A stretch of 64,000 nucleotides of DNA, taken from positions 240,779 through 304,778 of the forward strand of contig NZ_NCSM01000014.1 of assembly GCF_002224125.1 (NCBI RefSeq), in the 5' to 3' direction. This document shows positions 25,459 through 40,362 of the stretch, piece by piece; position 1 is the stretch's first letter, and each line of letters opens with the position of its first letter. The DNA is from Streptomyces sp. NBS 14/10 (lineage in GTDB: Bacteria; Actinomycetota; Actinomycetes; Streptomycetales; Streptomycetaceae). The translations under genes were made by a program, and so were the position numbers. The notes below the pieces were generated by a model. It was given only the letters and a program-made list of their open reading frames with translations. It made no database searches and was not told the DNA's origin.

Positions 25459-25613
25459 GGCGGCCTGCCTCTCCACAGCTGTGACGTGCGGAAACCCCGC
25501 AGCTGAGGCCGAACGCGTGATGAGGGTGCTGGCGTGGCCCCACGGGTTCCCCGCCTGTCGTCCGATGAAACGGCCAGGCCGCCGGGTGCGGAAGTTTCCC
25601 TTCCGTACGACCC

Positions 25614-25642
25614 TTGGCAGGACGCGCGACTCTGTTTATGGT
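25614..25642 (+). promoter_or_regulatory. Likely promoter of the hydroxyproline locus
   Basis: TTGGCA (25614-25619) and TATGGT (25637-25642) are separated by exactly 17 bp, a good vegetative-sigma arrangement. The expected start site (about 25649) falls inside the conserved 16-bp operator candidate, so a bound repressor would block initiation. Confidence 0.65.
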
Positions 25643-25643
25643 G

Positions 25644-25659
25644 CAGTGCAATGCTACAT
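25644..25659 (-). promoter_or_regulatory. Candidate GntR operator, copy 1
   Basis: On the minus strand this reads ATGTAGCATTGCACTG, matching copy 2 at 34702-34717 at 15 of 16 positions but in opposite orientation. The core TGYARCATTGCA approximates a palindrome of form TGYAAYRTTRCA, as expected for a dimeric FCD-type GntR regulator such as the one at 36658-37377. It lies 15 bp before the GH127 start codon and just before its GGAGG site. Confidence 0.75.
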
Positions 25660-25674
25660 GTCACTGGAGGACGG

Positions 25675-27618
25675 ATGGGTCACCAGACCGTGGCGCCCCT
25701 GCGGGGCTCACGTGTGCGCATCACCGGGGGGCTGCTGGCCGACTGGCAGCGGCGCAACCGCGAAGCCACCGCGCCGCACACGCTGGAGCAGCTGAGGAAG
25801 GCGGGCAATCTCGACAACCTCCGCCGACTGCTGCCCGAGGTGCCCGAGGAGAAGCGGCGCACCACGCCCTACCGCGGGCGGTATCCGTTCCTGGACACCG
25901 ACCTCTACAAGACCTTGGAGGGGCTGGTCTACGAACTGGCGCTGCCGGACGACGACGGCGGCCGGCAGGCGATGCGGGACTTCTACGAGGAGACCGTGGA
26001 CCTGCTGGAGCGCGTCCAGGCGCCGGACGGCTACCTCAACTCCTTCTTCCAGGACCCCGACTCTGCCAAGGCACCCTGGGAAGACCTTTCCTGGGGCCAT
26101 GAAATGTACAACCTCGGCCATCTCATCCAGGCCGCCGTCGCCGCGCACCGGCAGCTCGGGGACAGACGGCTGCTTGACGTGGCCGTACGCTTCGCGGATC
26201 TGGTGGTGGAGCGCTACGGACCGCGGGGCGAGGATGCGGTCTGCGGCCACCCCGAAGTCGAGATGGCCCTGGTGGAGTTGTACCGGGAGACCGGCGAAGA
26301 GCGGTATCTGACCCAGGCCCGGCTGTTCGTCGACCGCCGCGGCCGGGGCACCGTGCCATCGCGGGGCATGGGCTCCGCGTACTTCCAGGACCATCTGCCA
26401 CTGCGCGAACTCCCCTCGGTGACCGGACACGCGGTGCGGATGGTCTACCTGGCCGCGGGCGCCACCGATGTGTTCCGGGAGACCGGCGACCGGACACTGT
26501 TCGACGCGCTGCGGCGGCTGTGGGACGACATGGTGGCCACCAAGCTGTATGTGACGGGAGGTCTTGGCAGCCGCCACTCCGACGAGGCTGTTGGTGACCG
26601 TTACGAACTTCCCTCCGAGCGCTCCTACAGCGAGACCTGCGCGGCCATCGGCACCATGCAGTGGGCCTGGCGGATGTTCCTGGCCACCGGTGACGCCCGC
26701 TATCCCGACGTGCTGGAACGCGTCCTGTACAACGCGTTCGCCGTGGGCCTGTCAGCGGACGGACGCGCCTTCTTCTACGACAACCCGCTTCAGCGGCGCC
26801 CCGACCACGAGCAGCGCAGCGGGGCCGAGGAGAGCGGCGAACCGCTGCGCCAGTCCTGGTTCGGCTGCCCCTGCTGCCCGCCCAACGTGGTGCGCTGGAT
26901 GGCCCAGCTCGCGGACTTCCTCGTCGCGGAGCGGGAGGGAGAGCTGCTGGTCGCGGGGTACGCCGAGGCCGGTGTGGACGGGGAGGAGGTCGCGCTGGAC
27001 ATGGTGACCGGCTATCCGTGGGACGGCGAGGTGCGGCTCACCGTGCGCCGGGCGCCCGACCGGCCGTACCGGATCTCGCTCCGGGTGCCCGGCTGGGCGG
27101 ACGCCGGGCGGGTCCGGCTCACGGTGGGCTCGGTGGGCGAAGAGGCTGTGGCCGGGGACGTGGCGGACGGCTGGCTGAGCGTCGAGCGGCGCTGGAGCCC
27201 GGGCGACGAACTGCGGCTGAGCCTGCCCATGCCGGTCCGCGGCCATGTCTCCCACCCCTACCTGGACGCGACGCGCGGCACGGTCGCGGTGGCCCGGGGG
27301 CCGTTGGTCTACTGCGTGGAGCAGCAGGACTGCACGGCCGGCGTCGACGACGTGCTGATCGGCGCCGAGCACATCGCTGCCGCCCGGACCGCCGTCGCCC
27401 CGGAATCCGACGGTGTGCCGTCGGGAGCGCCGCTGATCCGGATCACCGCGGACATCGCGCCGCCGCCCTCACCCGAGCTGTATCCCGTGCTCGCGACCGG
27501 TCCGCAACAGGACCGGCCCGACGCTGCCACCGACACCGCCGAGCTGACCCTCGTCCCGTACTTCGCATGGGGCAACCGAGAGCCCGGCCCCATGCGGGTG
27601 TGGATCAGAAACACCTGA
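25675..27618 (+). CDS. GH127 beta-L-arabinofuranosidase
   Basis: This 647-residue glycoside hydrolase of family 127 (former DUF1680) would hydrolyse beta-L-arabinofuranosides, such as the chains on hydroxyproline of plant extensins; Bifidobacterium HypBA1 is the reference enzyme. The cysteine-zinc active site is recognisable: Glu304 (SDEAVGDRYEL), Glu320-Thr-Cys322 (SETCAAIG) and Cys400-Cys401 (GCPCCPPN). There is no signal peptide, so it acts inside the cell on imported sugar-peptides. ATG 25675 has GGAGG 4 nt upstream. It heads a locus encoding a peptide transporter, prolidase-type peptidase and hydroxyproline catabolism, which strongly supports a hydroxyproline-arabinoside substrate. Confidence 0.92.
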   Translation: MGHQTVAPLRGSRVRITGGLLADWQRRNREATAPHTLEQLRKAGNLDNLRRLLPEVPEEKRRTTPYRGRYPFLDTDLYKTLEGLVYELALPDDDGGRQAMRDFYEETVDLLERVQAPDGYLNSFFQDPDSAKAPWEDLSWGHEMYNLGHLIQAAVAAHRQLGDRRLLDVAVRFADLVVERYGPRGEDAVCGHPEVEMALVELYRETGEERYLTQARLFVDRRGRGTVPSRGMGSAYFQDHLPLRELPSVTGHAVRMVYLAAGATDVFRETGDRTLFDALRRLWDDMVATKLYVTGGLGSRHSDEAVGDRYELPSERSYSETCAAIGTMQWAWRMFLATGDARYPDVLERVLYNAFAVGLSADGRAFFYDNPLQRRPDHEQRSGAEESGEPLRQSWFGCPCCPPNVVRWMAQLADFLVAEREGELLVAGYAEAGVDGEEVALDMVTGYPWDGEVRLTVRRAPDRPYRISLRVPGWADAGRVRLTVGSVGEEAVAGDVADGWLSVERRWSPGDELRLSLPMPVRGHVSHPYLDATRGTVAVARGPLVYCVEQQDCTAGVDDVLIGAEHIAAARTAVAPESDGVPSGAPLIRITADIAPPPSPELYPVLATGPQQDRPDAATDTAELTLVPYFAWGNREPGPMRVWIRNT

Positions 27619-27619
27619 T

Positions 27620-27725
27620 CAACCCCCCACCTGATCAACCCCCCTGCCTGTACATATCCCTCCGCCTGTACATCCCCCTGCCTGTATCTCCCCCCACGCG
27701 TACGTCCCCCTGCGTACGTCCCTTG
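27620..27725 (+). repeat. C-rich degenerate repeats before binding-protein gene
   Basis: The gap between the GH127 stop and the binding-protein gene is almost G-free on the plus strand and built of near-repeats. It has two copies of cctgatcaaccccc-like sequence, three of gcctgtat/gcctgtacat plus a C run, and two of gcgtacgtccc, at a spacing of about 15-18 bp. It may be an mRNA spacer, a processing site that raises binding-protein expression, or replication slippage. Confidence 0.75.
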
Positions 27726-27756
27726 TCCGCCCTCCCTCACTTCCGGAGAAGGTGCC

Positions 27757-29454
27757 ATGAGAAGAGCTGTCCTGTCCTGCGCCGCCCTGTGTACCGCCAT
27801 TCCCCTGACCCTCACTGCCTGCAGCGGAGGTGGCCCCGCCGCCTCCGGCCAGGCCAAGCCCACCGCGGACCCCGCCACCGGCGGCACCGTGCACGTCCTG
27901 GGGAAGGCCGATTACTCGCATCTCGATCCGGCACGCGGTTTCGACGGCGGGGTCAACAACTTCTACCGTCTGGTCTACCGCACCCTCACCACCCGGGAGG
28001 CGGCCGGTCCGCACAGCGACGGGACGAAGATCGTCGGAGATCTGGCCACCGACACCGGCCGCCCGTCCAATGACCACAAGACCTGGACCTTCACCCTCAA
28101 GAAGGAGCTGTTCTTCCAGAACGGCGCCCCGATCACCAGCCAGGACGTCAAGTTCGGCGTGGAGCGGGCCTGGGATCCCGACGCGGGCATCGGCTCGCCG
28201 TACGCCAAGCAGGTCATCGCCGCACCCGCCGACTACAAGGGCCCCTACCAGTCCGGCGATCTGGACACCATCGAGACCCCGAACGATCGCACGATCGTCT
28301 TCCACCTCAAGACGTCCTATCCGCAGTTCTCCAGCGTGGTCGCACAACCGAACTTCACCCCCTTCCCCAAGGGCACCGGCGCCAAGGCCGCCTTCGACAC
28401 CAAGCCGATCGCGTCCGGTCCGTACCAGGTGGACAGCTACCGGCGGGGCGCCACGCTGGAACTCGTCCGCAACAAGCACTGGAAGCGCTCCTCCGACCCG
28501 GTGCGCGCCGCCCGCCCCGACGGTTTCGTCTTCACCTTCGGACTCGATCCGGCCACCATGGACGAGCGCCTGATAGCGGGTCAGGGCAAGGACATCAACG
28601 CCATCGGTGCCATGGTGCAGCCCGCCACCATCGCCCGGCTCCGCACCCCGCAGCTCAAGCCGCGCACGCTCGGCAACGTGACCGGCTGCACCACGTACAT
28701 GAGCCTGAACACCACCAAGGGGCCGCTCAAGGACGTCCGGGTGCGCCAGGCGATCGAGTACGCCGTCAACAAGCAGACCACGGTGGACGCGCTCGGCGGC
28801 TCCACCCTGGCGACCGCGGCCACCTCCATCCAGCCCCCGTCGATTCCCGGCCGCGATGCCACGGATGTGTATCCCTCCAAGGACGGCACCGGCGATCCGG
28901 CCGCCGCCCGCAAACTGCTGGCCGAGGCCGGCCAGTCCAAGGGCTTCACCCTCACCGTGGACGCCCGGGCCGCCGCCACCGAGCAGGCCGTGGCGGTGGC
29001 CGTCCAGCAGGGGCTGAAGCGGGTGGGCATCAAGGTGAAGATCAACACCATTGACACCTCGACCTTCTACGAGGTCATCGGCACGCCCTCGCAGCAGCAC
29101 GACGCGGCGCTCACCGGCTGGTGCCCGGACTGGCCGGGCGGCACCACCTTCCTGCCGCCGCTGTTCGACGGACGGCTCATCTCAGCCAAGGGCAACTCGG
29201 TGCTCTCCATGCTCGACGACAAGAAGATCCAGAAGCGCATCGACGAGATCGCGGGGATGGATGACGAGACGGCACAGAACGAGGCCTACGGCAAGCTCGA
29301 CGCCGAGATCATGAAGCTCGCCCCGATCGTGCCGCTCAACTACACCAAGACCGTGCTGGTGGTCGGCAGCAATATCGCGGGCGCCCACACCTCGATTTCG
29401 TTCAGCGGCGGAATCGACCTGGTCGGCATCGGCCTCGCCGACCCGAAGAAGTAG
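27757..29454 (+). CDS. ABC oligopeptide-binding lipoprotein (SBP family 5)
   Basis: This 565-residue solute-binding protein of the DppA/OppA family has a lipoprotein signal peptide ending in the lipobox LTAC (Cys22). The family-5 features are present (GGTVHVLGKADYSHLDPAR after the signal, FTLKKELFFQNGAPITSQDVKFGVER near residue 110). It would capture peptides outside the membrane for the permeases encoded immediately downstream. GGAGAAGG lies 4 nt before ATG 27757. In this locus the likely ligand is a hydroxyproline-containing, perhaps arabinosylated, peptide. Confidence 0.92.
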   Translation: MRRAVLSCAALCTAIPLTLTACSGGGPAASGQAKPTADPATGGTVHVLGKADYSHLDPARGFDGGVNNFYRLVYRTLTTREAAGPHSDGTKIVGDLATDTGRPSNDHKTWTFTLKKELFFQNGAPITSQDVKFGVERAWDPDAGIGSPYAKQVIAAPADYKGPYQSGDLDTIETPNDRTIVFHLKTSYPQFSSVVAQPNFTPFPKGTGAKAAFDTKPIASGPYQVDSYRRGATLELVRNKHWKRSSDPVRAARPDGFVFTFGLDPATMDERLIAGQGKDINAIGAMVQPATIARLRTPQLKPRTLGNVTGCTTYMSLNTTKGPLKDVRVRQAIEYAVNKQTTVDALGGSTLATAATSIQPPSIPGRDATDVYPSKDGTGDPAAARKLLAEAGQSKGFTLTVDARAAATEQAVAVAVQQGLKRVGIKVKINTIDTSTFYEVIGTPSQQHDAALTGWCPDWPGGTTFLPPLFDGRLISAKGNSVLSMLDDKKIQKRIDEIAGMDDETAQNEAYGKLDAEIMKLAPIVPLNYTKTVLVVGSNIAGAHTSISFSGGIDLVGIGLADPKK

Positions 29455-29459
29455 CCCGC

Positions 29460-30419
29460 ATGGCGACCACCACCCTCCACGAGGCGCAGCCCGGACTGCC
29501 CTCGCCCCCGGCCGGCGCCGCGCCGCCCGGGGGCACCGGGCGACGTGTGCTGCGCGAACTGCGGCGCGATATCGGGGCCGTGCTCAGCACCGCGTTTCTC
29601 GCCCTGCTGGTGCTGATGGCCCTGTGCGCGCCGCTGATCGGCACGCTGACCGGGCACGGCCCGGACACCTTCGACAGCGCGGCCGTCGACAAGGACCTGG
29701 GCGGGCTGCCCAAGGGATCGCTCGGCGGTATCAGCGGCGACCACTGGCTGGGCGTGGAACCGCAGAACGGCCGCGACATCCTGGTCCGGATCGCCTACGG
29801 GGCGCGGATCTCGATGCTGATCGCCGTCTCCGCGACCCTCCTGACCACCGTCATCGGCGTGGTGCTCGGCCTGCTGGCCGGGTTCTACGGCCGCTGGGTG
29901 GATCAGGTCATCTCCCGGCTGATGGACTTCCTGATGGCCTTCCCGGCCCTGATCTTCATGATCGCGGTGCTGTCCGCGCTGCCGGCCGGCAACCGTCCGG
30001 TGCTGCTGGTGATCGTGTTGAGCGTCTTCGGCTGGCCGTATCTGGCGCGTGTGGTGCGCGGTCAGACGCTGACCCTGACGGGCCGGGAGTTCGTCGAGGC
30101 GGCGCGGTCCTCCGGGGCGAGCAGCCGGGCGCTGATCTTCGCGGAGATCCTGCCCAATCTGCGCAGCACCATCATCGTGATGACCACGCTCGCCGTGCCC
30201 GGATACATCGGCACCGAGGCCGGACTCTCCTTCCTCGGCGTCGGGGTCACCCCGCCGACCGCCTCCTGGGGGCAGATGATCGCCACCTCGGTCAGCTGGT
30301 ACCAGGTGGACCCGATGTACTTCGTGATCCCCGGAACCTTCCTCTTCGGCACCGTGCTCGCGCTGACCGTGGTGGGCGACCGGCTGCGGCACGCCCTGGA
30401 CGCGGGGGAGGCCTCCTGA
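29460..30419 (+). CDS. ABC peptide permease, DppC-like
   Basis: This 319-residue inner-membrane permease has a long cytoplasmic N-terminus, six hydrophobic segments and the coupling loop EAARSSGASSRALIFAEILPNL, which contacts the ATPases. The DHWLGVEPQNGRDILVRI segment is typical of the C-type subunit of peptide transporters. It starts 5 nt after the binding-protein stop and its stop overlaps the next start (TGATG). Here the C-type subunit precedes the B-type one, the reverse of the usual dpp/opp order. Confidence 0.92.
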   Translation: MATTTLHEAQPGLPSPPAGAAPPGGTGRRVLRELRRDIGAVLSTAFLALLVLMALCAPLIGTLTGHGPDTFDSAAVDKDLGGLPKGSLGGISGDHWLGVEPQNGRDILVRIAYGARISMLIAVSATLLTTVIGVVLGLLAGFYGRWVDQVISRLMDFLMAFPALIFMIAVLSALPAGNRPVLLVIVLSVFGWPYLARVVRGQTLTLTGREFVEAARSSGASSRALIFAEILPNLRSTIIVMTTLAVPGYIGTEAGLSFLGVGVTPPTASWGQMIATSVSWYQVDPMYFVIPGTFLFGTVLALTVVGDRLRHALDAGEAS

Positions 30420-31414
30420 TGCTCCGCTACGTCGCCGGCCGGCTCTCCTGGGTGCTGGTCATCCTGCTGGCCGTCTGTGTGTTCACCTATGTCATCTTCT
30501 TCCAGCTCTCGCCGGACCCGGCGGTGATGGTCTGCGGCAAGACCTGCACACCGGAGCGCATCGACACGATCCGGACCTCCCTCGGCCTCGACCGCCCGTT
30601 CCTCCAGCAGCTGTGGGACTTCCTGCGCGGCATCGTGGCCGGACGGGACTACGGCTCGGGCGCCAATCTGGTCCACTGCCCCGCCCCCTGCCTCGGCTAC
30701 AGCTTCCAGAGCGGCCAGTCGGTGTGGGAGATGGTCCTCGAGCGGCTCCCGGTGAGCGTCACCGTCGCCGTCGGCGCGGCCGTGCTCTGGCTGCTGGGCG
30801 GGATCACCATCGGGCTGCTGAGCGGGGTCAAGGAGGGCACGTGGTGGGACCGCTCCACCATGGCGCTGGCGCTCGGCGGCTCCAGCATCCCCCCGTACGT
30901 ACTCGCCCTGGCGCTCCAGTACCTGCTGGTGGTCAAGTGGCAAGTGCTGCCGTTCCCCGCGGCGATCCCGTTCGGCGACGATCCGGTGGCCTGGTTCCAG
31001 TCGTATCTGATGCCGTGGATCGTGCTCGCCATCGGATACGCGTGTCTGTACGCCCGGATGACGCGGGCGAACGTCATCGACACCCTCGCCGAGAACTTCA
31101 TGCGCACGGCACGCGCCAAGGGGCTCGGACCGGTCCTGATCCTCCGCCGGCACGCGCTGCGGCCGGCGCTCACCCCGATCGTCACCATCTTCGGGATGGA
31201 CTTCGCCGGTCTGCTCGGCGGCGCCCTCATCACCGAAACCGTCTTCGGCCTCAACGGCGTGGGCAAGATGGCCTCGGACGCGATCGCGAAGAACGACCAG
31301 CCGGTGATCATGGCGGTCACGCTGCTGGCGGCGTTCTTCGTGGTGATCGGCAACGTCGTGGTCGATCTGCTCTATACGGCGCTGGACCCGCGCGTAAGGA
31401 TCACCGCGTCATGA
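30419..31414 (+). CDS. ABC peptide permease, DppB-like
   Basis: This 331-residue B-type permease has the N-terminal signature MLRYVAGRLSWVLVIL, about six membrane segments and the coupling loop FMRTARAKGLGPVLILRRHALRPAL. A predicted outside loop contains two Cys pairs (VCGKTC and CPAPC), which may form disulfides. ATG 30419 overlaps the preceding stop and its own stop overlaps the next ATG (ATGA at 31411-31414), so all permease and ATPase genes are coupled. The longer open frame starting at 29624 is a shadow of the DppC-like gene. Confidence 0.92.
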   Translation: MLRYVAGRLSWVLVILLAVCVFTYVIFFQLSPDPAVMVCGKTCTPERIDTIRTSLGLDRPFLQQLWDFLRGIVAGRDYGSGANLVHCPAPCLGYSFQSGQSVWEMVLERLPVSVTVAVGAAVLWLLGGITIGLLSGVKEGTWWDRSTMALALGGSSIPPYVLALALQYLLVVKWQVLPFPAAIPFGDDPVAWFQSYLMPWIVLAIGYACLYARMTRANVIDTLAENFMRTARAKGLGPVLILRRHALRPALTPIVTIFGMDFAGLLGGALITETVFGLNGVGKMASDAIAKNDQPVIMAVTLLAAFFVVIGNVVVDLLYTALDPRVRITAS

Positions 31415-32259
31415 CCGCATCCCCAGCCCACCGGGCTGACTCGGCCGAGTCCGCGGACCTGCTGGCGGTCGAGGGTCTGACCGTGACCTTCCCGACCACC
31501 CGAGGACCGGTGGACGTCGTCCGCGACAACACCTTCACTCTGCGGAACAACGAAACCCTGGGCATCGTCGGCGAATCCGGCTCCGGCAAGTCCATGACGG
31601 CCCTCGCCGTCATGGGGCTGCTCCCACGGGGCGCGCGCACCAGCGGCAGCATCCGGTTCCGGGGCACCGAACTGCTCGGCCGCCCGGACGCCGAGCTGCG
31701 CCGGCTGCGCGGAAACGTGATGTCCATGGTCTTCCAGGACCCGCTGTCCTCGCTCAACCCGTACTACACGGTGGGCCTCCAGATCGCCGAGGTCTACCGC
31801 TGCCACCGCGGCGGCTCGCGCCGCGCGGCGCGAACGATGGCCGTCGACGCACTCGGCCGGGTCGGCATCCCGGACCCGGCCGAGCGGGTCGACCGCTATC
31901 CGCACCAGTTCTCCGGCGGACAGCGGCAGCGCATCATGATCGCGATGGCGCTGATCTGCGAACCCGCCCTGCTCATCGCGGACGAGCCGACCACCGCGCT
32001 GGACGTCACGGTGCAGTCCCAGATCCTCGAGCTGCTGGCCGAGCTGAAGCGGCAGACCGGCACCGGCATGCTCTTCATCACCCACGACCTGGCGGTGATC
32101 GCCACGATCGCCCAGCGGGTGCTGGTGATGCGCGAGGGCGAACAGCTCGAATACGCCGACACGGAGCGGGTCTTCTCCGCGCCGCGCCACCCTTACACCC
32201 GGATGCTGCTGGAGAGCATCCCGCGTATCGACGACGAGGCACAGGAGGAAGTCCGGTGA
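31411..32259 (+). CDS. ABC peptide transporter ATPase, DppD-like
   Basis: This 282-residue ATP-binding subunit has Walker A GESGSGKS, the Q-loop VFQDPLSSLNP, signature FSGGQRQR, Walker B LLIADEPTTALD and switch His in FITHDLAV. The C-terminal HPYTRMLLESIPRID tail is typical of the peptide transporter ATPases. It is coupled at both ends (ATGA start, GTGA end), so equal expression with its partner ATPase is likely. It powers import of peptides captured by the lipoprotein at 27757-29454. Confidence 0.94.
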   Translation: MTASPAHRADSAESADLLAVEGLTVTFPTTRGPVDVVRDNTFTLRNNETLGIVGESGSGKSMTALAVMGLLPRGARTSGSIRFRGTELLGRPDAELRRLRGNVMSMVFQDPLSSLNPYYTVGLQIAEVYRCHRGGSRRAARTMAVDALGRVGIPDPAERVDRYPHQFSGGQRQRIMIAMALICEPALLIADEPTTALDVTVQSQILELLAELKRQTGTGMLFITHDLAVIATIAQRVLVMREGEQLEYADTERVFSAPRHPYTRMLLESIPRIDDEAQEEVR

Positions 32260-33143
32260 CCGGCAGCCGAGCTGAGGTACGGCCCCTGCTGCGCGCCCGC
32301 GATCTCACCAAGCGCTTCACCACGCGGGGCGGGGGCGGTCCGCTGGGGCGCAAATCGGTGTTCACCGCGGTGGACTCGGTCAGCTTTGAGGTGTTTCCGC
32401 ACGAGACGCTGGCGCTGGTGGGCGAGTCCGGCAGCGGGAAGTCCACCACCGCGCGGCTGGTGGCGAAGCTGATGGAAGCCACCGAGGGCACCGTCGAGTT
32501 CGACGGGCAGGACGTCACCCATGCCCGCGGGCCCGACCTGGCCCGCTTCCGCAACGACGTCCAGGTCGTCTTCCAGGACCCCTTCTCCTCGCTCAACCCC
32601 CGCCACACCGTGGAGCGCATCCTCACCGCACCCCTGGTCTACCAGGGGCTTCCCATCCCCGGAGGGCGGCGGGCCTTCGCCGGGGAGCTGATGGAACGGG
32701 TCGGTCTCAACCCCGACCATCTGCACCGCTACCCGGCGCAGTTCTCCGGCGGACAGGCCCAGCGGATCGGCATCGCCCGCGCCCTCGCGGTCGGCCCGAA
32801 GCTGGTGATCTGCGACGAGGCGGTCTCCGCGCTCGATGTGTCGGTGCAGGCCCAGGTGATGGACCTGCTGCTGCGCCTCCAGCGGGAGAGCGGCTTCTCC
32901 TACCTCTTCATCGCCCACGACCTCGCCGTGGTGCGCCGGATTTCGCACCGTATCGCCGTCATGAAGCAGGGTGTCATCGTGGAGTCCGGCCCCTGCGCGG
33001 AGGTCTTCGATCGCCCCCGGGACCCGTACACCCGCACCCTGCTGGCCGCGATACCCCGTATCGACCCGGAATGGGACCGCCGGCGCCGCGAGGGCGCCAC
33101 TGAGCACGCGTCCACCACCGCCTCAGCCGAGGAGCTGCCATGA
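32256..33143 (+). CDS. ABC peptide transporter ATPase, DppF-like
   Basis: This 295-residue second ATPase subunit has Walker A GESGSGKS, the Q-loop VFQDPFSSLNPRHTV, signature FSGGQAQR, Walker B LVICDEAVSALD and His in FIAHDLAV. It starts with GTG overlapping the preceding TGA and ends overlapping the peptidase ATG (ATGA at 33140-33143). The C-terminus is extended by about 25 polar residues after the usual DPYTRTLLAAIPRID. Confidence 0.94.
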   Translation: MTGSRAEVRPLLRARDLTKRFTTRGGGGPLGRKSVFTAVDSVSFEVFPHETLALVGESGSGKSTTARLVAKLMEATEGTVEFDGQDVTHARGPDLARFRNDVQVVFQDPFSSLNPRHTVERILTAPLVYQGLPIPGGRRAFAGELMERVGLNPDHLHRYPAQFSGGQAQRIGIARALAVGPKLVICDEAVSALDVSVQAQVMDLLLRLQRESGFSYLFIAHDLAVVRRISHRIAVMKQGVIVESGPCAEVFDRPRDPYTRTLLAAIPRIDPEWDRRRREGATEHASTTASAEELP

Positions 33144-34675
33144 CCGACGACCTGACCACCCGCTCCCGTACCGCCACCGCCACGGAGGCTCCCGCCATCG
33201 CCACGGACACCCCCACCACTGCTACGGAGAGCCCCGCGCCGCAGCCCGCGCCGCAGTCCTCGCCGCGGCCCACGAAGCTGGACCCGCGGATGCCCCGGCT
33301 GGCCGAGCTGCCCTCCTTCGCGGCGTTCATGGCGGAGGGCTGGGACACCCCCGACCGCAGCGCCCGGACCGTGCCGGGAGCCGCGGAGGCCGCCGCACAC
33401 CACCGGGCGCGGCTCAGCGCCGCCCACCCGGGAGCGGCGATCGTGGTGGCCGCCGGGCGCGCTCCGGTGCGCTCCAACGACACCAACTACGACTTCCGCC
33501 CGGACAGCGACTTCTACTGGCTGACCGGGTGTGGCGGGGTGGAGCACGGCGTACTGGTGCTGCGCCCCGTACCGGGGGGCCATGACGCGACCCTGCACCT
33601 GCCCGCCCCGGCCCGGCCCGGGGAGACGGGGTTCTTCGCCGACGCCGCGCACGGCGAGCTGTGGGTCGGTGGCGCCCCCGGGCTCGACGAGTGGAGCGAG
33701 GCGCTGGGCCTGGCCGTCCGGCCACTCGACGAGCTCGACGCCGCGCTGGCCGGGCTCAGCAAGCCGCTGCTGACCGGTGGGCTCGACCCCGACACCGCAC
33801 ACCGCCACGGCCTCGCCGTGTCCGCCGATCTGGGCCGTACGCTGTCAGAACTGCGCATGGTCAAGGACGCCTGGGAAATCGAGCAGATGCGGCAGGCCGT
33901 GGACCGCACCGTCGAGGGCTTCGCCGCCGTGGTGCGCGAGTTCCCGGCGGCCATCGCGGGCGGCGGGGAGCGCTGGCTGCAGGGCACCTTCGACCGCTAC
34001 GCCCGCACCCACGGCAACGGCCCCGGCTACGCGTCCATCGTGGGCAGCGGCACACACGCGGCCACGCTGCACTGGGTGCGCTGCGACGGCCCGGTGGCGG
34101 AGGACAAGGCGGTGCTGCTTGACCTGGGGGTGGAGACGAACAGCTACTACACCGCCGATGTGACGCGCACCTTCCCGGCCTCGGGCCGGTTCAGCCAGGC
34201 CCAGCGCGACGTGCACGACCTGGTGGAGCGGGCGCACCGGGCGGGCCTGGCCGCCGTCGTCCCGGGCCGGGACTTCGCCGACTTCCACACCGCCGCCATG
34301 GAGGTGGTGGCGCGGGGCCTGGCCGACTGGGGGCTGCTGCCGGTCTCCGTCGACGAGGCGCTGTCCCCGCAGGGCCAGCACCACCGGCGCTATCTGGTCT
34401 GCGGCATCGGACACCACCTGGGTCTCGATGTGCACGACTGCGCGCGGTCGGACTACGCCGCGTACCAGGGCGGGAAGATGACGCCCGGCATGGTGCTCAC
34501 CGTGGAGCCGGGGCTGTACTTCCACGAGCACGACCTCACCCTCCCGCCGGAGCTCCGCGGGATCGGGATGCGCATCGAGGACGATCTGCTGGTCACCGAG
34601 GACGGCGCGGAGGTGCTGTCCGCGGCCCTGCCGCTGGACGCCGCGGGCCTGGAGCGCTGGATGACGACCCGCTGA
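33140..34675 (+). CDS. Xaa-Pro aminopeptidase (M24B)
   Basis: This 511-residue metallopeptidase would remove N-terminal residues before proline or hydroxyproline from imported peptides. It has an aminopeptidase P N-domain (SNDTNYDFRPDSDFYWLTG). The C-terminal pita-bread domain supplies the two-metal ligands: Asp in LLDLGVETNSYYTADVTRTF (two), His in GIGHHLGLDVHD, and Glu in LTVEPGLYF and MRIEDDLLV. The first 50 residues are a Thr/Ala/Pro-rich tail without signal character, so it is cytoplasmic. It is translationally coupled to the transporter, linking uptake of proline-type peptides to cleavage that frees hydroxyproline. Confidence 0.93.
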   Translation: MTDDLTTRSRTATATEAPAIATDTPTTATESPAPQPAPQSSPRPTKLDPRMPRLAELPSFAAFMAEGWDTPDRSARTVPGAAEAAAHHRARLSAAHPGAAIVVAAGRAPVRSNDTNYDFRPDSDFYWLTGCGGVEHGVLVLRPVPGGHDATLHLPAPARPGETGFFADAAHGELWVGGAPGLDEWSEALGLAVRPLDELDAALAGLSKPLLTGGLDPDTAHRHGLAVSADLGRTLSELRMVKDAWEIEQMRQAVDRTVEGFAAVVREFPAAIAGGGERWLQGTFDRYARTHGNGPGYASIVGSGTHAATLHWVRCDGPVAEDKAVLLDLGVETNSYYTADVTRTFPASGRFSQAQRDVHDLVERAHRAGLAAVVPGRDFADFHTAAMEVVARGLADWGLLPVSVDEALSPQGQHHRRYLVCGIGHHLGLDVHDCARSDYAAYQGGKMTPGMVLTVEPGLYFHEHDLTLPPELRGIGMRIEDDLLVTEDGAEVLSAALPLDAAGLERWMTTR

Positions 34676-34701
34676 GCCGCCTACCCGTAAGCACCAGTGG
34701 T

Positions 34702-34717
34702 ATGTAACATTGCACTG
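34702..34717 (+). promoter_or_regulatory. Candidate GntR operator, copy 2
   Basis: ATGTAACATTGCACTG lies 18 bp before the DapA-like start codon and just before its AAAAGGAGG site. It repeats the motif upstream of the GH127 gene with one mismatch and opposite orientation. Flanking bases also agree (agtg on one side). The conservation points to a second regulated promoter in the locus. Confidence 0.75.
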
Positions 34718-34735
34718 TTCCTAAAAGGAGGATCC

Positions 34736-35644
34736 ATGACCGTCGGCCCCGACACCCCCTGGCGCGGAATCCATGTCGCGACGCCGCTGCCGCTGCGCAG
34801 CGACCTCTCCGTCGACTACGACGCCTACGCGGAGCACGTCCGCTTTCTCGCCGCCGGTGGCTGTGACGGCGTCTGCCCCAACGGCTCCCTCGGCGAGTAC
34901 CAGACCCTGTCCGATGAGGAGCGCGCCCGTATGGTGCGCACCGCCGTCGAGGCGTCCCCCGAGGGCCACACCGTGATGCCCGGCGTGTCCGCGTACGGCG
35001 CGCTGGAGGCCCGCCGTTGGGCCGAGCAGGCGGCCGAGGCGGGCGCCGACTCGGTGCTGCTGCTGCCGCCCAACACCTACCGCGCCGACCGCGAGGCCGT
35101 GGTGGCGCACTACCGCGAGGTGGCCGCGGCCGGTCTTCCGGTCGTCGCGTACAACAACCCCCATGACACCCGGGTCGACCTCACCCCCGACCTGCTGGCC
35201 GAACTGCACGCCGAGGGCCTGATCGTCGCGGTCAAGGAGTTCAGCGGAGACGTCCGCCGCGCCTATGAGCTGGCCGAACTCGCCCCCGGCCTCGACCTGA
35301 TCATCGGCGCCGACGACGTCCTGCTCGAACTCGGCCTGGCCGGGGCGGTCGGCTGGATCGCCGGCTACCCGGGCGTCCTCCCGGAGAGCTGCGTGGAGCT
35401 CTACCGGCTCGCCACCTCCGGCGAACCCGCCGACATCGCCAAGGCCCTGCCGCTCTACCGCGATCTGCACCCGCTGCTGCGCTGGGACTCCAAGACCGAG
35501 TTCGTCCAGTCCATCAAGCTGTCCATGGATGTCGTCGGGCTGCGCGGTGGCCCCTGCCGCCCGCCGCGCACCCCGCTCCGGCCCGAGATCGCCGAGCGGG
35601 TCGTCCGGGACACCGAAGCCGCTGTCGCCAAGGGATACAAGTGA
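34736..35644 (+). CDS. DapA-family lyase, probable pyrroline-4-hydroxy-2-carboxylate deaminase
   Basis: This 302-residue class I aldolase-fold protein of the DHDPS/NAL family has the Schiff-base Lys167 (AVKEFSGD) and Tyr139 (VVAYNNPH). The GxxGE motif reads NGSLGEYQTL. In bacterial hydroxyproline catabolism a DapA-family enzyme converts delta1-pyrroline-4-hydroxy-2-carboxylate to 2-oxoglutarate semialdehyde with loss of ammonia. The neighbouring epimerase and D-hydroxyproline dehydrogenase make that the best assignment over lysine biosynthesis. ATG 34736 has a strong AAAAGGAGG site. Its stop overlaps the epimerase GTG (GTGA). Confidence 0.87.
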   Translation: MTVGPDTPWRGIHVATPLPLRSDLSVDYDAYAEHVRFLAAGGCDGVCPNGSLGEYQTLSDEERARMVRTAVEASPEGHTVMPGVSAYGALEARRWAEQAAEAGADSVLLLPPNTYRADREAVVAHYREVAAAGLPVVAYNNPHDTRVDLTPDLLAELHAEGLIVAVKEFSGDVRRAYELAELAPGLDLIIGADDVLLELGLAGAVGWIAGYPGVLPESCVELYRLATSGEPADIAKALPLYRDLHPLLRWDSKTEFVQSIKLSMDVVGLRGGPCRPPRTPLRPEIAERVVRDTEAAVAKGYK

Positions 35645-36642
35645 GATCCAGCCGCGTCTTCCACACCGTCGAATCCCATACGGAGGGCATGCCCACCCGG
35701 GTCGTGGTCGGCGGTGTGGGCGTCATCCCGGGAAAGACCATGGCCGAGCGCCGCTCGTGGTTCATGGCCAACCGCGACGACGTACGCACCCTGCTGATGT
35801 ACGAGCCGCGCGGCCACTCGGCGATGAGCGGCGCCATCCTGCAGCCGCCGACCACCCCCGAGGCCGACTGGGGTGTGCTGTTCATCGAGGTCAGCGGCCT
35901 GCTGCCGATGTGTGGCCACGGCACCATCGGAGTCGCCACCGTGCTGGTGGAAACCGGCATGGTGGAGGTGCGCGAACCGGTCACCGTCATCCGGCTGGAC
36001 ACCCCGGCCGGGCCGGTGACGGCCGAGGTGGCGGTGGAGGACGGCCGCGCACGCTCGGTGACCCTGCGCAACGTCGTCTCCTTCGCCCACGCCCTGGACC
36101 GTACGGTCGATGTGCCCGGCCTCGGCAAGGTCCGCTACGACATGGCGTTCGGCGGCAACTTCTACGCCATCGTCGAGCTGGCGGAGCTGGGCCTGCCGTT
36201 CGACCGGCGGGCCGGGAACGAACTGCTGTCGGCCAGCCTGGGGATCATGGCCGCGATCAATGAGCAGGACGAGCCGGTCCACCCCGAGCGCCCCGACATC
36301 CGCGGCTGCCACCACGTCTATCTGAAGGCGCCCGGCTCGACCGCCGCCCACTCCCGGCACGCCATGGGCATCCACCCCGGCTGGTTCGACCGCTCGCCGT
36401 GCGGCACCGGCACCAGCGCCCGTATGGCGCAGCTCCACGCCCGGGGCGAACTGGCCGTGGGGGCGGAGTTCGTGAACGAGTCCTTCATCGGCACGCGCTT
36501 CATCGGGCGGCTGATCGAGGAGACTGAGGTGGCCGGACGACCCGCCGTGGTGCCCACCATCACCGGGCGCGCATGGGTCACCGGCACCGCCCAGTACACC
36601 CTGGATCCGGACGACCCCTTTCCGGCCGGATTCCTGCTTTAG
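35641..36642 (+). CDS. 4-hydroxyproline 2-epimerase (proline racemase family)
   Basis: This 333-residue PLP-independent racemase would invert C2 of trans-4-hydroxy-L-proline to give cis-4-hydroxy-D-proline. Both catalytic cysteines are present: Cys91 in MCGHGTIG and Cys254 in SPCGTGTSARMA. The Cys/Cys pair separates it from the hydroxyproline dehydratases, which carry Thr at the second position. The start is GTG 35641, overlapping the preceding TGA. Placement between a DapA-type deaminase and D-hydroxyproline dehydrogenase genes favours hydroxyproline over proline as substrate. Confidence 0.92.
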   Translation: MRSSRVFHTVESHTEGMPTRVVVGGVGVIPGKTMAERRSWFMANRDDVRTLLMYEPRGHSAMSGAILQPPTTPEADWGVLFIEVSGLLPMCGHGTIGVATVLVETGMVEVREPVTVIRLDTPAGPVTAEVAVEDGRARSVTLRNVVSFAHALDRTVDVPGLGKVRYDMAFGGNFYAIVELAELGLPFDRRAGNELLSASLGIMAAINEQDEPVHPERPDIRGCHHVYLKAPGSTAAHSRHAMGIHPGWFDRSPCGTGTSARMAQLHARGELAVGAEFVNESFIGTRFIGRLIEETEVAGRPAVVPTITGRAWVTGTAQYTLDPDDPFPAGFLL

Positions 36643-36657
36643 AAAGAGGCAACCCAG

Positions 36658-37377
36658 TTGGACGGCGAACGGCCGGTCACGGAGGAGTCGACGACGCAAG
36701 GGTCGACGACGCGAGAGTCGACGACGCACCTCCGCACCGTGGGAAAGCGTGAAATCCTCCGTGACCGGGTGCGAAACGCCCTGCGCGCCGCGATCATCTC
36801 CGGAGAGCTGACACCCGGCACGGTGTATTCCGCGCCGACGCTGGCCGCCAAGTTCGGGGTGTCCTCCACCCCGGTGCGCGAGGCGATGATCGACCTGGTC
36901 AAGGAGGAGCTGGTGGTGGCGCAGCCCAACAAGGGCTTCCTCATCACCGAGGTCTCCGAGCAGGACCTGGACGAGGTGACGGCGGTGCGGCTGCTCGTCG
37001 AACCGCCCTCGGTACGGGCCGTGGTGCCGCTGGTCCCGGCGGAGGCGTTCCCCGAGCTGCGGGAGCTGGCCCAGCGGATCGTGGAGGCCGCCGAGAAGGG
37101 CGACCTCATCGGCTACGTCGAGGCCGACCGGGTCTTCCACCTCGCCCTGCTGGCGCACGGCGGCAACCGGCGGCTGCTGGACGTGGTGGCCGGCCTCCGG
37201 GCCCAGACCCGGCTGCTGGGTCTCGCACCGCTGGTCCGCAAGGGCAACCTGGTGGAGTCCGCGGCGGAACACCACCAGCTGCTGGACTTCGTCGAGTCCA
37301 GGAACGCCGAGGCGGCCGAGTTGTTCATGCACCGCCACATCGGACACGTACGGGGCATCTGGGCGGGCGGCACATGA
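36658..37377 (+). CDS. GntR-family regulator with FCD domain
   Basis: This 239-residue FadR-type regulator has a winged helix at about residues 30-95 (ELTPGTVYSAPTLAAKFGVS, STPVREAMIDLVKEE) and an all-helical FCD ligand domain (AVRLLVEPPSVRAV, DRVFHLALLAHGGNRRL, EHHQLLDFVESRNAEAAEL) with the Asp/His metal ligands of that domain. The start is an uncommon TTG (36658) with AAAGAGG about 9 nt before it. The N-terminal tail is made of a 15-nt repeat present three times. Its stop overlaps the dehydrogenase ATG. It lies inside the hydroxyproline gene set and probably senses a pathway intermediate through the two 16-bp motifs. Confidence 0.92.
   Translation: MDGERPVTEESTTQGSTTRESTTHLRTVGKREILRDRVRNALRAAIISGELTPGTVYSAPTLAAKFGVSSTPVREAMIDLVKEELVVAQPNKGFLITEVSEQDLDEVTAVRLLVEPPSVRAVVPLVPAEAFPELRELAQRIVEAAEKGDLIGYVEADRVFHLALLAHGGNRRLLDVVAGLRAQTRLLGLAPLVRKGNLVESAAEHHQLLDFVESRNAEAAELFMHRHIGHVRGIWAGGT
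36687..36727 (+). repeat. 15-nt triplet repeat in GntR N-terminus
   Basis: The 11-mer gtcgacgacgc recurs at 36687, 36702 and 36717, giving three in-frame 15-nt units that encode a Ser-Thr-Thr-rich tail (ESTTQGSTTRESTTH). The units lie between the TTG start and the DNA-binding domain. Confidence 0.9.
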
Positions 37378-38570
37378 CCGGGTCGGCTCCGCGTACTGAC
37401 ACCGCCGACCTGGTGGTGATCGGGGCCGGGGTGGTCGGCGCGGCCGCCGCGTACTTCGCGGCCCGCGCCGGACTCCGCGTCACCGTCGTCGACCGTGGCC
37501 CGCTCGCCGGCGGTACGTCCAGCGCCGGCGAGGGCAATCTGCTGGTCTCCGACAAGGAGGCCGGACCCGAACTCGATCTCGCCCTGTTCTCCCAGCGGGT
37601 CTGGCGCGAGGACCTGGCCGAACACGCCGGGTTGTGGGAGTTCGAGGCCAAGGGCGGTCTGGTGGTGGCCGCCACCCCGGGCGGTGCGGACGCGCTCGCC
37701 AAGCTCGTCCTGGAGCAGCGCGCCCAGGGGATCGAGGCCGTCGACGTACCGAAGGACGAACTGCCGGACTACGAGCCCCAGCTGTCGCCCGAGCTGGTCT
37801 CCGGCGCCTTCTACCCGCAGGACGCACAGGTCCAGCCCATGCTGGTGGTGGCGCAGCTGCTCCGGATGGCGCGGCAGGCGGGCGCACGGGTACGGACGGA
37901 CACCGAGGTCACCGGGTTCCTCCGGACCGGCGACCGGATCACCGGAGTCCGCACCAGCCGCGGCCCGCTCAGCGCCCCCGCCGTGCTCAACGCCGCGGGC
38001 ACCTGGGGCGGCGCCGTCGCCGAACTGGCCGGGGTGCGGGTGCCGGTGCTGCCGCGGCGGGGATGCGTCCTGGTCACCCAGCCGCTGCCGGTCATGGTCC
38101 GGCACAAGGTGTACGCGGCGGAGTACGTGGGCGACGTGGCCAGTTCGGACGCGGCGCTGCAGACCTCACCCGTCGTCGAGGGCACCCGCGCGGGCACCGT
38201 CCTGATCGGCTCGTCCCGGGAACGGGTCGGCTTCGACCGCGACGTCCCGCCCGCCGTCCTCGCGGCGCTGGCCCGCAACGCGATCGCGCTCTTCCCCTTC
38301 CTGGCCTCCGTCCAGGCCATCCGCAGCTATCTGGGCTTCCGGCCGTACTGCCCCGACCACCTGCCGGTGATCGGCCCCGACCCGCGGGCCCCCGGGCTCT
38401 GGCACGCCTGTGGCCACGAGGGCGCCGGAGTGGGCCTGTCGGTGGGGACCGGCAAGCTGCTCGCACAGGCCATGACGGACCGCCCGACCGGCCTGGACCT
38501 GAGCCCCTTCGCGCCCGAACGATTCGAACAAGCCCTGCCCGGCGACGAGGTGAGCCCCGATGCCCCCTGA
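37374..38570 (+). CDS. D-hydroxyproline dehydrogenase, FAD subunit (DAO family)
   Basis: This 398-residue flavoprotein of the D-amino-acid-oxidase fold has the dinucleotide motif VVIGAGVVGAAAAYFAARAG, a GGTSSAGEGNLLVSDKEAG FAD-contact segment and the C-terminal HACGHEGAGVGLSVGTGKLL. It resembles the catalytic beta subunit of HcnC/OoxB-like multi-subunit dehydrogenases. With the following [2Fe-2S] and alpha-type subunits it would oxidise cis-4-hydroxy-D-proline to delta1-pyrroline-4-hydroxy-2-carboxylate, passing electrons onward rather than to O2. ATG 37374 overlaps the GntR stop (ATGA). Confidence 0.9.
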   Translation: MTGSAPRTDTADLVVIGAGVVGAAAAYFAARAGLRVTVVDRGPLAGGTSSAGEGNLLVSDKEAGPELDLALFSQRVWREDLAEHAGLWEFEAKGGLVVAATPGGADALAKLVLEQRAQGIEAVDVPKDELPDYEPQLSPELVSGAFYPQDAQVQPMLVVAQLLRMARQAGARVRTDTEVTGFLRTGDRITGVRTSRGPLSAPAVLNAAGTWGGAVAELAGVRVPVLPRRGCVLVTQPLPVMVRHKVYAAEYVGDVASSDAALQTSPVVEGTRAGTVLIGSSRERVGFDRDVPPAVLAALARNAIALFPFLASVQAIRSYLGFRPYCPDHLPVIGPDPRAPGLWHACGHEGAGVGLSVGTGKLLAQAMTDRPTGLDLSPFAPERFEQALPGDEVSPDAP

Positions 38571-38868
38571 CCCGATGCCCCCTGAGACAGCACAGCCCTT
38601 CGACCTGTCCTTCGACGGGCGGACCATCCACGCCCGGCCGGGCCAGAGCGTCGGGGCGGCGCTGGTCGCGGCCGGGGTGGTCGCCTGGCGCACCACCCGG
38701 GGGGAGGGCAGGCCGCGCGGGCTGTTCTGCGGGATCGGCGTCTGTTACGACTGCCTGATCACCGTCGACGGCCGCCCCGACCAGCGGGCCTGTCTGGTGC
38801 CCGCGGCCGAGGGCATGCGGCTGGAGTCGGGACGTACGGGAGGGGAGACCGATGCGCGGGAACGGTGA
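38560..38868 (+). CDS. D-hydroxyproline dehydrogenase, [2Fe-2S] subunit
   Basis: This 102-residue ferredoxin-like subunit (HcnA/OoxC type) has the plant-type iron-sulfur ligands CGIGVCYDC followed by a fourth Cys about 15 residues on (DQRACLV). The ATG overlaps the end of the FAD-subunit gene by 11 nt and its own 3' end overlaps the next gene by 17 nt. It would relay electrons between the two flavoprotein subunits. Such small subunits occur with this type of dehydrogenase in hydroxyproline clusters of pseudomonads. Confidence 0.9.
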   Translation: MPPDPMPPETAQPFDLSFDGRTIHARPGQSVGAALVAAGVVAWRTTRGEGRPRGLFCGIGVCYDCLITVDGRPDQRACLVPAAEGMRLESGRTGGETDARER

Positions 38869-40351
38869 CGCAACAGCAGAGGTAACGGCCGATGTGGCGG
38901 TGGTCGGCGCCGGTCCGGCGGGGATGGCCGCCGCGGCCGAGGCGGCGGCGGCCGGGCTGACCGTGGCCCTGGTGGACGCCGGCGAGCGGCCCGGCGGCCA
39001 GTACTGGCGGCACGGTCCGCACGACGAGGGACCCGTACGAGGTCAGCACGGCCGCCGTACGTTCGCCGCCCTGCGCGCGGGCCTGGTCCGTACGGGGACC
39101 CGTACGCTCTTCGGACACCAGGTGTGGCTCATCACCCGCGACACCGACCGGTTCACCCTCCATCTGCGGCCCACGCACGACGGCCGCGCGCCGGGGACCG
39201 GACCCGGTACCCGGACGCTGACCGCGCGTTCGCTGATCCTCTGCCCGGGTGCGTACGACCGCCAACTCCCGGTGCCCGGCTGGGATCTGCCCGGCGTCAT
39301 GGCGGCCGGCGGGGTGCAGGCCCTGCTCAAGGGGAGCGGCACCCTGGCCGGGCGGCGGGCCGTGGTGGCGGGGACGGGACCGTTCCTGCTGCCGGTGGCC
39401 ACCGGCCTCGCCGCGGCGGGCGCCGAGATCGTGATGGTCTGCGAGGCCAATCCGCTCCGCGGCTGGCTGCGCGACCCGGGCGGCGCGCTACGGGAACCGG
39501 CCAAGGCGGTCGAGGGCGCCCAGTACGCCGCGCTCCTCGCCCGGCACGGCATCCCGTACCGCACCAGGACCGTGGTCACCGAGATCCGCGGCGAGGACCG
39601 GGTGCGGTCCGTCCGTATCGCGCCGCTGGACCGCGACGGGCGCCCGCGCAGCGGTGTGCGGATCGAGCTGGACGCCGATCTGGTCGCGCTGGGCTGGGGG
39701 TTCACCCCGTCGCTCGAACTGCCGCTGATGGTCGGTGCGAGTACCCGGCTGGACACCGACGGCTCGCTGGTCGCCGTGGTCGACGCCCGGCAGCGGGCTG
39801 ATGTGCCCGGCGGCCCTGCTGTTTATCTCGCGGGGGAGGCCACCGGGGTCGGTGGCGCGGTGCTCGCCGTCCGCGAAGGGCGGCTGAGCGGGCTCGCCGC
39901 GGCAGCCGACCTGGGACGGACCGTCGACGAGGGCCGGATACGCCGGCTCCAGCGCGCGGTCCGCAGGGGCCGGCGCTTCGCCGCCGCCCTGCACACCGCC
40001 ACTCCGGTGCCACCGGGCTGGACCGACTGGCTCGACGGGTCCACGCTCATCTGCCGCTGCGAGGAGGTGACGTACGGCGATCTGTGCCACGCGGTACGCG
40101 AACTCGGCGCAGAGGACCCACGGACGCTGAAGATGCTGGCCCGGCCCGGTATGGGGATGTGCCAGGGCCGGGTGTGCGGCTTCGCGACCGCCCAGGTGGC
40201 GGCGGCGCTCACGGGTGGATCACCGGGTGCGCCCGGCACGCCCAGCACGCCCAGCACTCCCAGCGCGGACGATCTCCTTCCGCTGGCCCGCCGACCGCTG
40301 GCCACCCCGGTGACGCTCGGCGAAATCGCCGCGTTGGAGGAGGAGTCCTGA
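38852..40351 (+). CDS. D-hydroxyproline dehydrogenase, NAD/FAD-binding alpha subunit
   Basis: This 499-residue subunit of the HcnB/OoxA type has an FAD motif VAVVGAGPAGMAAAAEAA, a GGQYW motif and a second nucleotide motif AVVAGTGPFLLPVATGLA. A C-terminal BFD-like [2Fe-2S] region carries CRCEEV and MCQGRVCG. A 9-nt repeat near the C-terminus gives a PSTPSTPS tail. ATG 38852 overlaps the small subunit gene. It completes the three-part dehydrogenase and is the last gene of the hydroxyproline unit; the next gene is on the other strand. The final enzyme of the pathway, 2-oxoglutarate semialdehyde dehydrogenase, is not encoded here. Confidence 0.9.
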   Translation: MRGNGDATAEVTADVAVVGAGPAGMAAAAEAAAAGLTVALVDAGERPGGQYWRHGPHDEGPVRGQHGRRTFAALRAGLVRTGTRTLFGHQVWLITRDTDRFTLHLRPTHDGRAPGTGPGTRTLTARSLILCPGAYDRQLPVPGWDLPGVMAAGGVQALLKGSGTLAGRRAVVAGTGPFLLPVATGLAAAGAEIVMVCEANPLRGWLRDPGGALREPAKAVEGAQYAALLARHGIPYRTRTVVTEIRGEDRVRSVRIAPLDRDGRPRSGVRIELDADLVALGWGFTPSLELPLMVGASTRLDTDGSLVAVVDARQRADVPGGPAVYLAGEATGVGGAVLAVREGRLSGLAAAADLGRTVDEGRIRRLQRAVRRGRRFAAALHTATPVPPGWTDWLDGSTLICRCEEVTYGDLCHAVRELGAEDPRTLKMLARPGMGMCQGRVCGFATAQVAAALTGGSPGAPGTPSTPSTPSADDLLPLARRPLATPVTLGEIAALEEES

Positions 40352-40362
40352 CGCGCCCGCAC

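Follow-up and report, generated by a model that had tools for sequence, protein, structure and literature searches.

Gene content of the locus

A run of genes at 25675-40351 in a 64-kb window from the 12.1-Mb genome of Streptomyces sp. NBS 14/10 (the window being the whole stretch of DNA that was analysed) brings together a glycoside hydrolase of family GH127, a peptide importer and a hydroxyproline (Hyp) pathway. Pfam and NCBIfam matches give the order GH127, substrate-binding protein (SBP), OppC, OppB, OppD, OppF and aminopeptidase P. These genes are followed by a DapA-type gene, a 4-Hyp epimerase and a GntR/FCD regulator, and the run ends with three D-Hyp dehydrogenase subunits (DAO, 2Fe-2S and pyridine-nucleotide; Table 1). 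A first-pass annotation of this DNA had named these genes, and all of them are present by Pfam match, NCBIfam match or cysteine spacing, including a regulator of the locus's own with GntR and FCD domains.

Table 1. Features of the locus; positions refer to the window.
Feature	Coordinates	Strand	Basis or remark
Sigma70-like promoter TTGGCA-17-TATGGT, 5' of GH127	25614..25642	+	sole match in 25400-41000
HypR-type operator CAGTGCAATGCTAC, at expected transcription start of GH127 unit	25644..25657	+	relaxed pattern
GH127 beta-L-arabinofuranosidase (putative), 647 aa	25675..27618	+	PF07944/PF20736/PF20737
GH127-SBP gap of 138 nt, short repeats, strong predicted fold	27619..27756	+	folding vs shuffles
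Peptide-type SBP, lipoprotein-like signal LTAC (by eye)	27757..29454	+	PF00496 (SBP_bac_5)
OppC permease	29460..30419	+	PF00528, PF12911
OppB permease	30419..31414	+	PF00528, PF19300, via longer frame 29624-31414
OppD ATPase	31411..32259	+	PF00005, PF08352, via longer frame 30613-32259
OppF ATPase	32256..33143	+	PF00005, PF08352
Aminopeptidase P, M24B	33140..34675	+	PF05195 (AMP_N), PF00557 (Peptidase_M24)
Second HypR-type operator CAGTGCAATGTTAC, 5' of dapA	34704..34717	-	relaxed pattern
DapA-family protein	34736..35644	+	PF00701 (DHDPS); ribosome-binding site and operator upstream
4-Hyp epimerase, Cys91/Cys254	35641..36642	+	PF05544 (Pro_racemase), 437 bits
HypR-like GntR/FCD regulator	36658..37377	+	PF00392, PF07729
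D-Hyp dehydrogenase beta (DAO) subunit	37374..38570	+	PF01266
D-Hyp dehydrogenase gamma (2Fe-2S) subunit	38560..38868	+	102-aa frame, Cys spacing
D-Hyp dehydrogenase alpha subunit	38852..40351	+	PF07992 (Pyr_redox_2), weak Fer2_BFD

The catalytic, middle and C-terminal Pfam domains of the GH127 protein score 311, 63 and 77 bits, each above its cut-off. Glu304, Glu320, Cys322, Cys398, Cys400 and Cys401 align with identical residues of HypBA1 (3wkw), which we take to be the Cys nucleophile, the Zn ligands and the acid/base Glu of that enzyme. Among solved relatives 6ex6 ranks first, before 4qjy and HypBA1. No signal peptide is visible by eye at the N-terminus (MGHQTVAPLRGSRVRITGG...), in agreement with the first-pass annotation.

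The best solved relative of the SBP is 2wok, clavulanic acid biosynthesis oligopeptide-binding protein 2 (E 6.5e-76). OppD and OppF each carry ABC_tran and oligo_HPY domains, and OppB and OppC carry BPD_transp_1. The aminopeptidase P is closest to the solved proline aminopeptidase P II 4pv4 (E 1.9e-51), contains the family motifs with what are presumably the expected metal ligands, and would act on Xaa-Pro and probably Xaa-Hyp. Among the scanned cluster proteins, Pfam detected no glycosidase besides GH127; no genome-wide search for GH121 was made.

In the Hyp pathway, Cys91 and Cys254 of the epimerase lie exactly where they had been placed before. The best NCBIfam model for this protein is 4-hydroxyproline epimerase, at 367 bits just under the cut-off of 376, and it is the only Pro_racemase match in the genome. 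The DapA protein and the three dehydrogenase subunits have the same domain kinds as those listed for SCO6289-6292 of S. coelicolor, and the former is a probable pyrroline-4-hydroxy-2-carboxylate deaminase. The gamma subunit is assigned by cysteine spacing alone (Cys57/62/65/78, 2Fe-2S-like), and a gamma-type gene sits between the DAO and alpha genes in relatives as well. The alpha subunit is SoxA-alpha-like; its Fer2_BFD match, at 24.5 of 26 bits, is weak.

The earlier claim that each needed step is encoded here is an overstatement. None of the 40 Aldedh matches in the genome is an alpha-ketoglutarate semialdehyde dehydrogenase gene linked to the locus, no L-arabinose genes were found in the window's cluster, and no secreted protease was found among the scanned cluster proteins. 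A candidate for the missing dehydrogenase lies elsewhere (contig C57:78548-80053), 67% identical to the aldehyde dehydrogenase beside a Nonomuraea Hyp operon, an enzyme itself below every NCBIfam cut-off. S. coelicolor likewise has no linked dehydrogenase of this kind, according to the accessible portion of the report on its Hyp operon (PMC6608401).

Promoter, operators and regulator

The GH127 gene starts at 25675 with GGAGG in front, and 25614 is the -35 box of a promoter-like match of which 0.5 would be expected in shuffles of 25400-41000. An operator-like site at 25644-25657 directly follows this promoter. The start of dapA was moved from 34697 to 34736, where it is preceded by AAAAGGAGGATCC-ATG. 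A second operator-like site falls inside the 60-bp gap before dapA, and the locus is therefore probably two transcription units.

In S. coelicolor, HypR binds CTNTGC(A/C)ATGTCAC and represses the Hyp operon, which L-Hyp induces in vivo (PMC6608401; this and the other systems cited are described from the accessible portions of the respective papers). The relaxed pattern CWNTGCMATGYYAC was derived from this published motif and chosen after viewing the window and its relatives. It occurs three times in the whole genome of NBS 14/10, two of the sites being those within the locus; the reversed control pattern occurs once. The third site (L102, contig C96:28186-28199) lies near a 163-aa gene with no evident Hyp link.

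The window's regulator is 54% identical to the HypR-like regulator of Streptomyces sp. V4I2, with a matching DNA-binding helix. In V4I2, where ~300 kb separate the Hyp operon from GH127, an exact match to the HypR consensus precedes the regulator gene of the operon, and the site upstream of GH127 has two mismatches to the strict motif. We predict that the GH127/importer half and the Hyp half of the locus are under one switch.

The gap between GH127 and the SBP gene contains repeated CCTGATCAACC / CCTGTACAT units, and the stretch 27600-27756 folds at -34.9 kcal/mol (z -4.0 versus shuffles). This gap might set a higher level of the SBP.

Conservation across GH127 orthologs

A scan of genome contigs with the GH127 protein returned 55 loci, of which L053 (45%) and L054 (43%) were not counted as orthologs. 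The remaining 53 are 57-93% identical in the best segment, the nearest named ones being S. milbemycinicus (93%) and S. sparsogenes (85%). We examined ±10 kb around each and added downstream sequence for 25 of them; three loci (L002, L007, L018) end at contig ends. Within ±10 kb, the SBP gene is present at 51 loci, OppB, OppC and OppD at 50 each, OppF at 49 and aminopeptidase P (M24) at 36. A prolyl-aminopeptidase-like gene (PIP) accompanies 44 of the 53. Its product matches the solved Arabidopsis protein 8jgn (AT3g61540) over the full length and reaches no NCBIfam cut-off; the label also comes from short proline iminopeptidase matches and from the names in two plasmid records.

Linkage of GH127 to Hyp genes in relatives was a test set beforehand, and the prediction was borne out: DapA, epimerase (ProR) or DAO genes lie on the same contig at 29 of the 53 loci (27 in the first stretch, two more, L039 and L049, in the added one). 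In the window, a HypR-type operator precedes both halves. At 24 paralogous GH127 loci, searched with the same identity thresholds, SBP, OppB, OppC, OppF, PIP, M24 and Hyp genes were found at none (0/24). The exceptions there were one OppD-like gene 9 kb away, one araA/araB pair and one LamG-GH127-like gene.

The order GH127-SBP-OppCBDF is kept in Streptomyces, Nonomuraea, Kribbella, Isoptericola, Humibacillus and others, and the Hyp operons found with it are of two kinds, window-like and in the S. coelicolor SCO6289-6293 order. In a quick tree of 61 rows, which carried a long-branch warning, the orthologs form one clade apart from the six paralogs included (SH-aLRT 100). Arrangement classes, as assigned by us, require 18 changes on this tree and the linked or unlinked state requires nine, so that linkage between GH127 and Hyp genes recurs.

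The relaxed operator pattern precedes GH127 at 34 of the 53 loci and in 31 of the 50 genomes that were searched whole, including genomes whose Hyp operon is elsewhere. These 50 genomes hold 67 such sites, 31 before GH127 and six more at or next to Hyp genes. Allowing no more than one mismatch to the strict motif recovered 20 of 1186 gene-upstream stretches of the loci (one genome counted twice). Each of these lies before GH127, before a gene of the Hyp pathway or its regulator, or before a gene oriented divergently from GH127. Several Kribbella loci (e.g. L024, L026, L028) have two opposed ATGTCAC cores 26 bp apart before GH127.

Variant loci in other genomes

GH127 has araB and araA as neighbours, no more than ~10 kb away, in Streptomyces V4I2 (L012), Arthrobacter MYb227 (L039) and Humibacillus (L049/L087). 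The loci of MYb227 and Humibacillus additionally encode the DapA protein, ProR and the DAO, 2Fe-2S and alpha subunits, and that of Humibacillus also has araD; judged by gene content, the arabinose and Hyp ends of the putative pathway are joined at these loci. A LamG-GH127-like gene occurs within ~20 kb of GH127 at six loci (L008, on stretch L068, L014, L019, L021, L048 and L065), with a signal in L014 that looks by eye like one for twin-arginine translocation (Tat). The module is also carried by a linear plasmid of Streptomyces NBC_00841.

Plasmid p232 of Arthrobacter Rue61a encodes a peptide-type ABC importer, a PIP-like hydrolase, aminopeptidase P and Hyp genes, adjoining an M9 metallopeptidase; no GH127 is annotated at this Hyp-peptide locus. 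This stretch of a conjugative plasmid (L133, NC_018532.1 128000-166000) is likely a collagen version. ERGS1:01 has peptidases and Hyp genes, and neither an M9 metallopeptidase nor GH127 is annotated nearby. Taken together, these gene sets can be read as variants of a single Hyp-peptide core whose front end, either a collagenase or an arabinosidase, is exchangeable.

In the Rhizobium leguminosarum complex, a GH127 gene (~36% identical) lies inside a sugar ABC operon near a PIP-like gene (about 62-63% identical). Among the matches listed for both genes, which include many close relatives, PIP and GH127 are 2.6-4.9 kb apart in 24 of 25 Rhizobium plasmid records and 0.9 Mb apart in Rhizobium sp. 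BG6. In strain TA1 the stretch adds DapA-like, GntR and Xaa-Pro peptidase genes; L127 (NZ_CP088106.1 142986-162887) exemplifies this arrangement among the plasmids of the complex. The Rhizobium M24, DapA and GntR proteins are 28, 36 and 25% identical to those of the window; no ProR was found or annotated in the stretches read.

Further candidates were set aside. The GH127 genes of S. meliloti (20 kb read) and of a Clavibacter plasmid lie in LacI/sugar ABC contexts, with no Hyp genes in the stretches read. The PIP neighbourhoods of Marinibacterium and Devosia have no annotated GH127, and in R. daejeonense ugpC separates GH127 from a PIP-like gene, with no Hyp genes annotated nearby.

Neighbouring features of the window

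Upstream, 20720-22603 encodes a 627-aa protein with a Tat-like signal, an N-terminus that resembles a metallophosphatase by eye and a C-terminal Laminin_G_3 domain. This LamG protein was dropped as a secreted partner because it looks like a Tat-exported metallophosphatase. Downstream, 42968-44731 encodes a 588-aa protein with an alpha/beta hydrolase (Abhydrolase_8) domain. The first 498 residues of a 1562-aa frame at 51205-55893 match a type VII secretion system signal domain and DUF6531, a pair resembling that of large polymorphic-toxin-like proteins of actinomycetes.

Discussion

Gene identities, conserved linkage and operator matches were obtained by computation. Building on them, we consider it likely that the locus, under the control of HypR, allows the cell to live on arabinosylated Hyp peptides from extensin-type Hyp-rich glycoproteins of plants. 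In this model, the lipoprotein-like SBP would bind short Hyp-O-(beta-L-Araf)n peptides (Araf, arabinofuranose), and OppBCDF would bring them into the cell. The cytoplasmic GH127 would then strip beta-L-arabinofuranose off Hyp, and aminopeptidase P, together with the prolyl aminopeptidase in most relatives, would free the Hyp. The epimerase, the three-subunit D-Hyp dehydrogenase and the DapA-type deaminase would turn this into alpha-ketoglutarate semialdehyde, which an aldehyde dehydrogenase with its gene outside the locus would oxidise in the last step. The GntR protein would bind the two operators and keep both units repressed as long as neither Hyp nor a metabolite is present, a direction of regulation that we infer.

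Import before deglycosylation is plausible because the GH127 protein has no visible signal peptide and the locus encodes an Opp importer with a lipoprotein-like SBP. The glycans of arabinogalactan proteins attach to Hyp via galactose; the arabinogalactan-type source that had been proposed alongside extensin therefore fits less well than the extensin-type one. A Hyp-O-beta-arabinofuranosyl peptide would be the putative substrate, with the GH127 enzyme acting on Hyp-linked arabinose. The linkage that is cleaved, Araf-beta-Hyp or Araf-beta1,2-Ara, varies among GH127 and GH146 enzymes; XeHypBA1, of GH146, acts mainly on the former (PMC10850190).

Several observations weigh against this proposal. 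The specificity of the GH127 protein cannot be read from its sequence, because the nearest structure is 6ex6 and the sole NCBIfam match, aceric acid hydrolase, is far below its cut-off (385 of 950 bits). The PIP gene kept by most relatives was not found in the genome of NBS 14/10, which gave only two weak partial matches and would therefore rely on aminopeptidase P and other enzymes. The two operator-like sites differ from the strict HypR motif by three letters (25644-25657) and two letters (34704-34717); about 30 of the 67 relaxed-pattern sites are away from GH127 and Hyp genes, and the reversed pattern has 17 sites. HypR binding in vitro was unaltered by L-Hyp or D-Hyp (PMC6608401). S. luomodiensis, considered here by its regulator only (a 67% relative of the window's), is reported to use L-hydroxyproline and not L-arabinose (PMC11163044).

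The comparative data, too, contain contrary cases. Eleven Kribbella loci (L024, L026, L028-L030, L032-L034, L036, L037, L052) show GH127-Opp-PIP followed by a HypR-like GntR gene only, with no Hyp enzymes in the stretches examined. At ten of the 53 loci no Hyp genes were seen in the stretches examined; GH127 is preceded by the relaxed operator at six of these, by a near match at two and by neither at L019 and L042, so that the ten are not all hidden support. Opp genes were not found near GH127 in L010 and the plasmid relative L128, and the Rhizobium GH127 accompanies a sugar transporter, not a peptide transporter. ProR is present in all 50 of 50 GH127-ortholog genomes, yet also in 65 of 100 relatives generally; this co-occurrence therefore adds little, and we use physical linkage and operators instead.

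Could the locus instead serve unglycosylated Hyp peptides of collagen or gelatin, with the adjacent GH127 acting on different plant arabinosides, for example rhamnogalacturonan II or arabinan ends? A putative M9 collagenase gene is among the targets that HypR represses in S. coelicolor (PMC6608401). In Arthrobacter Rue61a a locus of this type adjoins an M9 peptidase, and ERGS1:01 combines peptidase and Hyp genes without an annotated GH127 nearby. We nevertheless regard this as unlikely, given the relaxed HypR pattern directly before GH127, in the window as at 34 of the 53 ortholog loci, and the conserved GH127-Opp order that paralogs lack. In Streptomyces NBC_01669 and NBC_00841, where no importer genes were found, GH127 still accompanies PIP, M24 and Hyp genes.

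It is quite unlikely that the family-5 SBP carries beta-arabino-oligosaccharides freed outside the cell while Hyp arrives by another route. The resemblance of the SBP to an oligopeptide-binding protein, the oligo_HPY domains of the ATPases, the peptidases embedded in the same gene run and the lack of a further Pfam glycosidase in the scanned cluster all speak against sugar import, for which the precedents are the pairing of the Rhizobium GH127 with a sugar ABC system and Bifidobacterium longum, modelled to import arabinobiose that HypBA1 splits inside (PMC5928203). A chance neighbourhood of separately useful genes, as the ten loci without visible Hyp genes and the often changing arrangement might suggest, is very improbable and is contradicted by the recurrence, the shared operators and the control loci.

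More tentatively, the proposed glycopeptide route may extend further: actinomycetes and, convergently, rhizobia may import intact arabinosylated Hyp glycopeptides for cytoplasmic deglycosylation, with substrates that could include CLE/CLAVATA3 and HypSys signalling peptides. We consider this possible but doubtful; if true, the locus could degrade plant peptide signals besides extensin fragments. Extensin-type glycoproteins are abundant in plant walls and are shielded by Hyp-linked arabinose. The glycopeptide proposal, if true, would assign a role to one uncharacterised GH127 clade, and the locus offers named genes, two operators and a directly testable substrate prediction.

Comparison with known systems

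The HypR regulon of S. coelicolor (SCO6289-SCO6294) resembles the window in its three-subunit D-Hyp dehydrogenase, DapA-type deaminase, epimerase, GntR/FCD regulator and operator pattern. It differs in that the accessible portion of the report lists no GH127, no importer and no peptidase except a putative collagenase (PMC6608401). B. longum, with hypBA1/hypBA2/bauABC (BauR), shares a cytoplasmic GH127 and the use of beta-L-arabinofuranosides of plant Hyp-rich glycoproteins. There, however, the sugar is cut outside, the disaccharide is imported and the regulator is of the LacI type, and the accessible text describes no Hyp use (PMC5928203, PMC10850190).

In Xanthomonas euvesicatoria, XeHypAA/XeHypBA2/XeHypBA1 remove arabinose from Hyp, as proposed for the window. 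At least XeHypAA and XeHypBA1 have signal peptides (none is visible in the window's enzyme), XeHypBA1 is now placed in GH146, and no Hyp catabolism is described in the accessible portions (PMC6085000, PMC10850190). Arthrobacter Rue61a p232 has the importer, aminopeptidase P and Hyp genes in common with the window, with the M9 metallopeptidase in place of an annotated GH127. The Rhizobium locus shares GH127, DapA-like, GntR and Xaa-Pro peptidase genes and differs in its sugar ABC operon.

The arabinoside half and the Hyp half are thus each already known, separately. We found no description of their coupling among the open-access papers listed, going by titles, abstract openings and accessible passages (subscription papers were outside the scope); the bacterial routes described in the accessible texts take either the sugar or free Hyp. 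The HypR-type locus would take both from one imported glycopeptide, in several actinomycete genera and with an echo in legume symbionts.

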